Assembly (NCBI GenBank): GCA_015068855.1
Contig: SVJS01000002.1
Location: 1 to 64,000, forward strand
Direction of reading: 5' to 3'
From: Oscillospiraceae bacterium
Lineage (GTDB): Bacteria; Bacillota; Clostridia; UBA1381; UBA9506
Length of the DNA stretch: 64,000 nt
Shown here piece by piece: positions 7,779 to 53,367 of the stretch (position 1 is the first letter of the stretch; each line of letters opens with the position of its first letter). Both the position numbers and the translations under genes were made by a program. The notes beneath the pieces were generated by a model that was given only the letters and a program-made list of their open reading frames with translations, made no database searches and had not been told where the DNA came from.

Positions 7779-7799
7779 TAAAGGGCTGTGACATGACAT

Positions 7800-7994
7800 A
7801 CGATGATGCGGGAGGTTGCCGCCGTTTGGCGGGTTTTTCCGCGGAGAATGTCCGATTCAAGAAACCGGGCGACTAGTCATACGCAAATGGATAGGAAAAA
7901 GCTTATCAGAGGCGGCTTTGTCTGCCTTTTTGCCCTTTTTCATTTCGTTTGTGTTCGGGATTTCCAAATGGGGAATACCGCAAAAGCGTGACGA
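7800..7994 (+). promoter_or_regulatory. structured 5' leader of the S10 operon
   Basis: This non-coding stretch contains a compact fold. UGCG (7807-7810) can pair with CGCA (7882-7885), enclosing the hairpin CCGCC-GUUU-GGCGG (7819-7832) and a second helix GUCCG/CGGGC. Short ORFs here lack credible start sites and similarity to known proteins. Together with the terminator at 7995-8026 it has the anatomy of an attenuating ribosomal-protein leader. The ligand, if any, is unknown; L4 does this job in E. coli, but no specific match is claimed. Confidence 0.45.
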
Positions 7995-52144: not shown

Positions 52145-53137
52145 TCACTCCTTTTTGGCGGGACGATTTACATGTTCAAACGCCAGACGTTGGAGAGCAT
52201 CAAAATCATAGCGGGATTTTTTAGACTCCTTGCCTTTGGCTTTGGTATCTCTTTTTATGTCCTCCTGCTTGCGGATGTTATCTGCTGCCCAGGATTCCAT
52301 AATTTTATTCATATAGGCAAAAGACAGGCGGCCTGTCTGGTCCACTGTTAATTCAAAGGCCTTTCTGACCATGTCAAGAGACATGGAAAGCTCATTTTGC
52401 CATTTATTTATATAGGTCAGCTCGCGGGTGGACAGGTGGCGCTCATGAATGCCTAAAATGGTGCGGACCTGACCGGCATAGCTTAAAAAGGCTTCGCGCT
52501 TTTCGATATAGGCCTTGGCTTTTTGCACAGTGTCAATGCCTGCTGAGGTCCATTTGCCGACCTCTTTTTCCATGTACTTCATGGAGCGTTTGCCTTTTCC
52601 CACGTAGTATTCAATTAAAACCAGAATAACCTCAATGGGCATGGCATAATAATCATGAAAGGAATATAAAAGCTCGGTATCGGCGCTGCTCAGGGTTTTG
52701 CCTAACATGCGACCGACCATTTTATACATCTGGCTCATGCGCGGGTTTTCGTGCAAGTGTCGACTGATTTCAGAGGACTTATAAGTAGGGCGAAAAGGCA
52801 GCGCATGCTTCGGGCTTTCCGGATTTTTAAAACAAAATTCGATATCAAAGTCACCATCGTCAACACTCGTGAAACGGTGGATTTTAAGCAGACCTTTTGA
52901 ACTAAAAAACATAAAGGCGTTAACAACGTCAATTAAGCTGACGTGCAAAGAGGCGGCAATATGTTCGTTGGACAGGTTAAGGTTGCCCGCTTGATACTGC
53001 CTGAGGGCATACAAATAAACAGCCAGATAGCTTGCGGGGCAGGAGGCTTCCACAAGCAAATCTGCCACACGCTCCGGGACACGGAAACTACCTATTTCGG
53101 GGCAGGGAGATGAAGCTGCAATAATCATAGCGGACAC
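52145..53137 (-). CDS. dnaD: DnaD domain replication protein
   Basis: A 330-aa primosome-type protein. The N-terminal region (about 10-120) looks like a winged helix with helix-turn-helix features. Two DnaD_2-like segments follow; the second has the family pattern FAYMNKIMESWAADNI near residue 280. In Firmicutes, DnaD remodels origin DNA and recruits helicase loading. Five bases separate it from dnaI, so the two are translationally coupled. GTG 53137 follows AGGAAAG. A hairpin-rich leader precedes it. Confidence 0.88.
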   Translation of the reverse strand: MSAMIIAASSPCPEIGSFRVPERVADLLVEASCPASYLAVYLYALRQYQAGNLNLSNEHIAASLHVSLIDVVNAFMFFSSKGLLKIHRFTSVDDGDFDIEFCFKNPESPKHALPFRPTYKSSEISRHLHENPRMSQMYKMVGRMLGKTLSSADTELLYSFHDYYAMPIEVILVLIEYYVGKGKRSMKYMEKEVGKWTSAGIDTVQKAKAYIEKREAFLSYAGQVRTILGIHERHLSTRELTYINKWQNELSMSLDMVRKAFELTVDQTGRLSFAYMNKIMESWAADNIRKQEDIKRDTKAKGKESKKSRYDFDALQRLAFEHVNRPAKKE

Positions 53138-53162
53138 CGTTACTTTCCTATGTATGGTAAGA

Positions 53163-53320
53163 ATTCGAGCACGATTTGTAAGTCAATTTTACCAGGAGTA
53201 AAAATGCTTGCTTGCAAGGGCGTTTTAGAGGGCGCCGTCAATTGACACAGTGCTCGAAAGAGCACAAAAGAGCGATAGCTCGCGAGAATTTTAAGCAATA
53301 AAATTCTCTATGTGTCAATT
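53163..53320 (-). promoter_or_regulatory. hairpin-rich leader upstream of dnaD
   Basis: Three perfect hairpins lie in tandem: GAGAATTTTA/TAAAATTCTC (53284-53308), GAGC/GCTC (53270-53281) and GTGCTC/GAGCAC (53250-53265). They are framed by the 10-bp inverted repeat AATTGACACA (53240-53249) and TGTGTCAATT (53311-53320). A further TCGAGCAC at 53165-53172 can pair with GTGCTCGA at 53250-53257 and would compete with the third hairpin, 16 bases from the dnaD RBS. No coding sequence is apparent. Because the outer arm overlaps the predicted start of transcription, part may act at DNA level. Confidence 0.5.
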
Positions 53321-53346
53321 ATACCATATCAAGAGCTAAAATGCAA
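53318..53346 (-). promoter_or_regulatory. promoter of the dnaD-dnaI-prs-queA unit
   Basis: On the minus strand, TTGCAT (53346-53341) and TATAAT (53323-53318) are spaced 17 bp. Confidence 0.7.
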
Positions 53347-53367
53347 ATGAGAAAATCGAATTTTGAC

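Follow-up and report, generated by a model that had tools for sequence, protein, structure and literature searches.

The dnaD gene (PF07261, DnaB_2 domain; 52145-53137, minus strand) of the window, i.e., the whole stretch of 64,000 nucleotides analysed here, lies upstream of dnaI and prs and downstream of rpsO (PF00312; 53446-53733, minus strand), a gene order that is the same in congeners lacking the element described below. Promoter scan located, on the same strand as all the features that follow, a -35 region (53342-53347, TTTGCA or TTGCAT) that goes back to the ancestral dnaD promoter, and the -10 box TATAAT (53318-53323). The dnaD promoter reads TTTGCA, 18 nt, TATAAT, with a preceding TATGG giving an extended -10, and the distance from TTTGC to TATAAT is 24 nt both in the window and in element-free congeners such as L043.

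Comparison of copies and empty sites delimited a mobile-element core of 132 bp (53186-53317), extending from the first base past TATAAT to an internal right end, GGTAAAAT. It opens with the 5' arm of an outer stem (TGACACA, 53311-53317), whose 3' arm (TGTGTCA, 53243-53249) was recognised by both sequence and covariation; the two belong to a 10-bp outer repeat (53311-53320 and 53240-53249) that is 100% complementary. Three perfect hairpins are enclosed: hairpin 1, of 10 bp (53284-53308; arms 53299-53308 and 53284-53293), hairpin 2, of 4 bp (53270-53281; arms 53278-53281 and 53270-53273) and of 6-7 bp in other copies, and hairpin 3, of 6 bp (GTGCTC TTTC GAGCAC, 53250-53265; arms 53260-53265 and 53250-53255), the last also marked by covariation. 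The outer stem is closed by the conserved motif CAATTGACGG (53235-53244), and motifs of ATTGACGG type occur in near as well as distant subfamilies. A terminator-like tail hairpin follows (53198-53228; canonical form GTAAAAATGC-CC-TTGC/GCAAGCATTTTTAC), weakened in the dnaD copy by a C.A mismatch: its fold was computed at -1.9 kcal/mol, against -8.9 or -10.9 kcal/mol, plus a T-run, in canonical forms. According to the alignments, the core ends with CTCCTGGTAAAAT (53186-53198), a TGnTATAAT-like sequence that in many distant copies is exactly TGGTATAAT, and is followed by a degenerate 3' tail (53154-53185) containing the TCGAGCAC complement, where other copies have ATCTAAATTGTGCACGAATTCTATAAT. On the opposite strand (window 53190-53240, plus strand), the tail resembles a ribosome-binding site and start (CAGGAGTAAAAATGCTTGCTTGCAAGGG), in other copies too, and short ORFs are present in several of them; this ORF start is probably fortuitous, because some copies have ATA and not ATG.

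The minimum free energy of the region 53138-53325 (minus strand) was -52.3 kcal/mol, compared with -35.0 for shuffled sequences (z -4.5). The three perfect hairpins and the 10-bp outer repeat, first described in a sequence-only reading of this DNA, are real, and they are conserved with covariation in other copies. The same reading had proposed a competing pairing, and indeed TTCGAGCAC (53164-53172) is complementary over 9 nt to the hairpin 3 region 53250-53258. When the RNA is started at the predicted transcription start, it lacks most of the outer 5' arm and this long-range pairing takes over in the computed minimum, so that the alternative fold is a fair reading of the single dnaD sequence. 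The complement, however, was found in no other copy, and the two-state switch was rejected.

A dispersed repeat inserted 3' of the -10 box

The dnaD leader is one member of a repeat of ~130-165 bp, present in the 1.25-Mb genome in five good copies (identity 100, 91, 82, 78 and 77%), with a sixth, decayed copy (L006) added by manual reading of the same genome. These copies precede dnaD, an unknown gene, pyruvate kinase, cysK, pyrK and a PHP-domain gene. The sequence-only reading had held that hairpins dispersed elsewhere would speak against a regulatory RNA, and this is the situation encountered; its fallback, a mobile palindrome overlapping the start of transcription, was essentially right, the feature being a dispersed repeat inserted just past a -10 box.

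Matches were obtained in 28 of 61 related genomes, with up to 11 per genome, some of them in tandem. Scanning GTDB contigs with the conserved tail retrieved 77 stretches, all from Clostridia and mostly from gut or rumen MAGs. A copy (L108) is also carried by Acetivibrio sp. MSJd-27, which is in culture. The exact tail pattern was present in 19 of 95 genomes of the order and in 22 of 391 genomes sampled from the class, figures to be read as lower bounds, since only the exact tail was sought. An assembly artefact was rejected, as copies with different flanks recur across many independent assemblies. When viral carriage was examined, one putative viral contig was found to carry an ordinary copy of the element.

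The aligned copies follow a constant plan: the host -35 region, TATAAT, the outer 5' arm starting 0-3 nt on, the three hairpins, the outer 3' arm, the ATTGACGG-type motif, a bulged tail hairpin (GTAAAAATGC-CC-TTGC-RA-GCAAGCATTTTTAC) and a TGGTAtAAT-like right end. In distant subfamilies plan and tail are kept, with hairpin sequences that are entirely different, and the right end is exactly TATAAT in 28 of 45 copies, mostly as TGGTATAAT. The window-type subfamily carries an extra tail of ~30 nt, with a TATAAT 24-36 nt past the core in 23 of 51 copies, so that its right boundary is ambiguous between the end of the core and the end of the tail. Some unusual arrangements were also observed. Three head-to-tail units with a period of 125, joined exactly at TATAAT and followed by the stub of a fourth, occupy L101:490-864. 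At L078:1-162 an inverted tail module at the opposite end turns the whole element into a near-perfect palindrome, either an inversion product or an effect of assembly, and the pyrK copy (L005) is directly followed, after its right end, by a second, partial cloverleaf without tail.

Three loci for which element-free relatives were available establish both insertion and its left boundary. At dnaD, the eight other genomes of the genus sampled (L039-L046) have an rpsO-dnaD gap without the element and with a matching distance from the -35 region to TATAAT, as exemplified by L043 (TTTGCTTTTTTGACATATGTATGCTATAAT) versus the window (TTTGCATTTTAGCTCTTGATATGGTATAAT). At pyrK, the site is empty in L173-L177 (in L173, TTGCAA-17 nt-TATAAT) and filled in L172 (TTGCAT-17 nt-TATAAT followed by the element). 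At ychF, in another species, L195 and L197 are empty and L193 is filled (TTGATAAAGTTACGATGATGTGATATAAT in L195 versus TTGATAAATGTACACCAATGTGATATAAT plus element in L193). In all three cases the promoter of the element-free species has the same -35/-10 spacing, and the base after TATAAT is the first of the element. For the pyk and cysK orthologues no informative empty site was obtained.

The preference for real promoters is strong: a TTG at the -35 distance accompanies 75% of 88 copies, versus 15% of 1,166 other TATAAT sequences in the same DNA, and an extended -10 (TGn) is present in 81% of the 88. One orientation dominates as well. According to mechanical ORF calling, the downstream gene is co-directional in 70 of 83 copies and opposed in 13, several of these exceptions resembling shadow ORFs because a correctly directed ribosome-binding site and start codon follow the element; genes upstream of the copies are split 43:32 in orientation. 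Placement exclusively at promoters could also reflect selection after insertion. Genes downstream of the copies share no obvious common function. Host genes that look replication- or partitioning-like by sequence were noted at L031, L070 (MinD-like), L034, L062 (ParA/Soj-like), L064, L132 (Xer-like) and in the window (dnaD).

The element is apparently mobile and, in gut and rumen Clostridia, is placed precisely at the -10 box of promoters that already existed. In the open-access literature on mobile promoters, promoter-targeting MITEs and Oscillospiraceae repeats, no description of this repeat family or of the choice of a -10 box as target was found, and the family apparently is an undescribed one.

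Covariation of the fold and the alternatives at dnaD

Covariation was evaluated on an alignment of 18 copies that had not been fitted to the structure. Paired cells amounted to 92.8%, versus 35-48% when partners were slid. Changes on both sides were seen in 20 of 37 pairs, including 6 of 7 in the outer stem and 4 of the 9 counted in hairpin 1, some of these changes being inherited together, since the count was made on paralogues with common ancestry. The covarying helices are the three hairpins, the outer stem and the tail hairpin. Moreover, 5' and 3' ends match better within a copy than between copies (mean stem score 6.8 versus 3.8).

Transcription from a standard sigma-70 promoter starts ~7 nt after the -10 box. 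The outer stem corresponds to bases 1-7 after TATAAT, hence its 5' arm would lie mostly upstream of +1; a stem that is mostly untranscribed at the predicted start and yet covaries favours a structure formed in single-stranded DNA. Selection probably acts on the folded DNA strand, RNA selection explaining the outer stem less easily, with the start predicted from the -10 box.

The position of the outer stem also weighs on the alternatives in which the product is an RNA. The copies might be small RNA genes forming one family, in which each captures a host promoter to make a structured RNA of ~115 nt while its extended -10 right end restores host transcription. A promoter directly ahead of nearly every copy, a tail hairpin resembling a terminator and the 28 of 45 distant copies ending in an exact TATAAT, mostly as the extended -10 TGGTATAAT, would all agree with such a family; we nevertheless consider it unlikely, as the outer stem reaches upstream of the expected start, the window-type right end is a poor promoter and the tail hairpin is weak in the dnaD copy.

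Slightly less probable still is a riboswitch or attenuator, a regulatory RNA in the leader, spread as a cis-regulatory module, with the cloverleaf as sensor and the tail hairpin with its T residues as terminator. Copies are regularly found in 5' leaders, with the gene in the same orientation, the fold covaries and canonical copies have a terminator-like tail hairpin. Against this, the covarying outer stem falls largely between the -10 box and the expected +1, the subfamilies, with their entirely different hairpin sequences, have no conserved binding pocket, near-identical copies are followed by unrelated genes, the other sampled congeners lack the element at dnaD and the tail hairpin of the dnaD copy is broken. 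Rfam gave no hit in the region at the gathering threshold, nor when E values up to 5 were admitted. Elsewhere in the window, an S10-Clostridia ribosomal protein leader (RF03136) was recorded above the gathering score at 7794-7875 (plus strand).

For dnaD itself, the specific proposal of a two-state regulatory RNA governing dnaD-dnaI-prs is not supported, given the near-identical copies preceding unrelated genes, a switch helix that is not conserved and the lack of an Rfam match; the riboswitch candidacy of the dnaD hairpins is refuted. The absence of the element from dnaD in all eight other congeners sampled speaks against a dnaD-specific role, and no evidence was found for the nucleotide-linked signal that had been suggested, leaving a regulatory role at dnaD unsupported. 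The gene retains its own -35 and -10 and gains a structured leader. Any influence on dnaD expression is likely to be passive, through the structured leader and possible attenuation, and not sensory; the mismatch-broken tail hairpin, as modelled, would fit transcription reading through into what is an essential gene.

A DNA operator at dnaD, serving a repressor or a regulator of replication, also raised as an alternative and seemingly favoured by the 10-bp inverted repeat overlapping the -10 and start region, is very improbable and largely refuted by the covarying arms, whose sequences change freely while complementarity is kept, the opposite of what is expected of a protein-recognised operator; the element is, moreover, also found at unrelated genes.

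Proposed mode of movement and relation to known elements

The reading we prefer, with a probability of roughly 0.7, is that the dnaD hairpins belong to a copy of a small, non-autonomous mobile element, inserted in one orientation immediately 3' of the -10 box TATAAT of a pre-existing dnaD promoter and now forming the 5' leader of the dnaD operon. Such an element would move as folded single-stranded DNA, and a transposase supplied elsewhere would recognise the cloverleaf and the bulged tail hairpin. The target would be TATAAT on the non-template strand, possibly when melted in the RNA polymerase open complex, and the right end, mimicking the target, would be where the second cleavage takes place. 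The host -35 and -10 would be kept upstream of the inserted element and a TATAAT-like box restored downstream, so that the host gene would stay transcribed.

In the open complex the -10 box is melted and its non-template strand unpaired, so that an enzyme acting on single strands might find a natural target there. Targeting of promoters via this melted box is speculation; it would account for insertion that is strand- and direction-specific and lands in the 5' leader. The wider proposal, that a new class of ssDNA mobile element aims at the melted -10 box and restores a -10-like box behind itself, is put forward as tentative, and we regard it as rather doubtful. If true, an element recognising the -10 box would have an unusual insertion specificity, the leader of a working gene being rewritten at every insertion with its promoter retained, and would make it testable whether transposition can be directed to the single-stranded DNA of the initiation bubble. 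It would also account for structured leaders resembling riboswitch candidates in gut Clostridia, that of dnaD included, and explaining such leaders as copies of the element would prevent false riboswitch calls.

Among known systems, IS608 inserts 3' of TTAC, which is retained in the left flank, and has TCAA at its right (PMC5934647). The dnaD-type element shares with the IS200/IS605 family and its non-autonomous derivatives (IS608, ISDra2) a fixed short target kept at the left with insertion 3' of it, folded subterminal hairpins, one of them bulged, a strand-specific orientation and a target-like right end. At the three loci compared, the left-hand TATAAT occupies the same place in element-free relatives, and the right end resembles the putative left cleavage site, as TGGTATAAT, TGGTARAAT or a TATAAT at the end of the tail. 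Pairing is possible between ATT in the conserved ATTGACGG and AAT in TATAAT, both being near-invariant among copies. The differences are that the target is a -10 promoter box and not a generic tetranucleotide, that the element has a four-helix cloverleaf with freely variable arms, and that no tnpA partner and no clearly matching guide were found; no copy lies near any of the Y1_Tnp (HUH) genes examined.

REP/REPIN sequences mobilised with RAYT (TnpA-REP) are likewise short, multi-copy, intergenic, hairpin-forming and non-autonomous, and RAYT-like genes are present in the same genome. REP architecture consists of a GTAG tetranucleotide plus palindrome (PMC8266576). This arrangement is absent from the aligned copies, the RAYT genes are not flanked by the element, and presence of the element tracks RAYTs poorly. 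By analogy, the element may work like a non-autonomous IS200/IS605-type or REP-like one, membership failing on the partner transposase and on REP architecture.

The BOX, RUP and SPRITE repeats of pneumococcus are similarly interspersed, with a strong predicted fold, and co-transcribed with their neighbours. They are over-represented between convergent genes (PMC3049150), whereas the present element follows promoters and does so in one orientation. Correia elements and promoter-carrying MITEs, short and mobile, lie ahead of genes whose transcription they can change (PMC10969869); the present element is also short, apparently mobile and upstream of genes, but Correia elements bring their own promoters, while this one uses the host -35 and -10 and has no terminal inverted repeats. 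Its left-end repeat pairs with an internal site and not, as in a classical MITE, with the right end. With regard to target-site duplication, a TATAAT-like box is found on both sides, the right box belonging to the element.

No transposase was found beside or inside any copy, and among 82 tail matches, nearly all of which have a promoter box less than 150 nt away, no autonomous version enclosing an ORF was seen. A RAYT/Y1 transposase as partner was rejected: these genes are present in 30-35 of 61 relatives, overlap weakly with the element and have no flanking copies. Y1 transposases of either IS200/IS605 or RAYT type do not have the element at their flanks and also occur in genomes lacking it, and the element is absent from 20 stretches around RAYT-like genes. 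Two RAYT-like Y1 genes were located in the genome itself (G000 C14:3304-3804 and C4:32288-32776; L146 and L147), with others in relatives. Their proteins differ in one segment (VGAIHELPEN, VGEGLCALPK, VGQGLAPAE), which looks like the in-frame insertion and translation of different REP palindromes.
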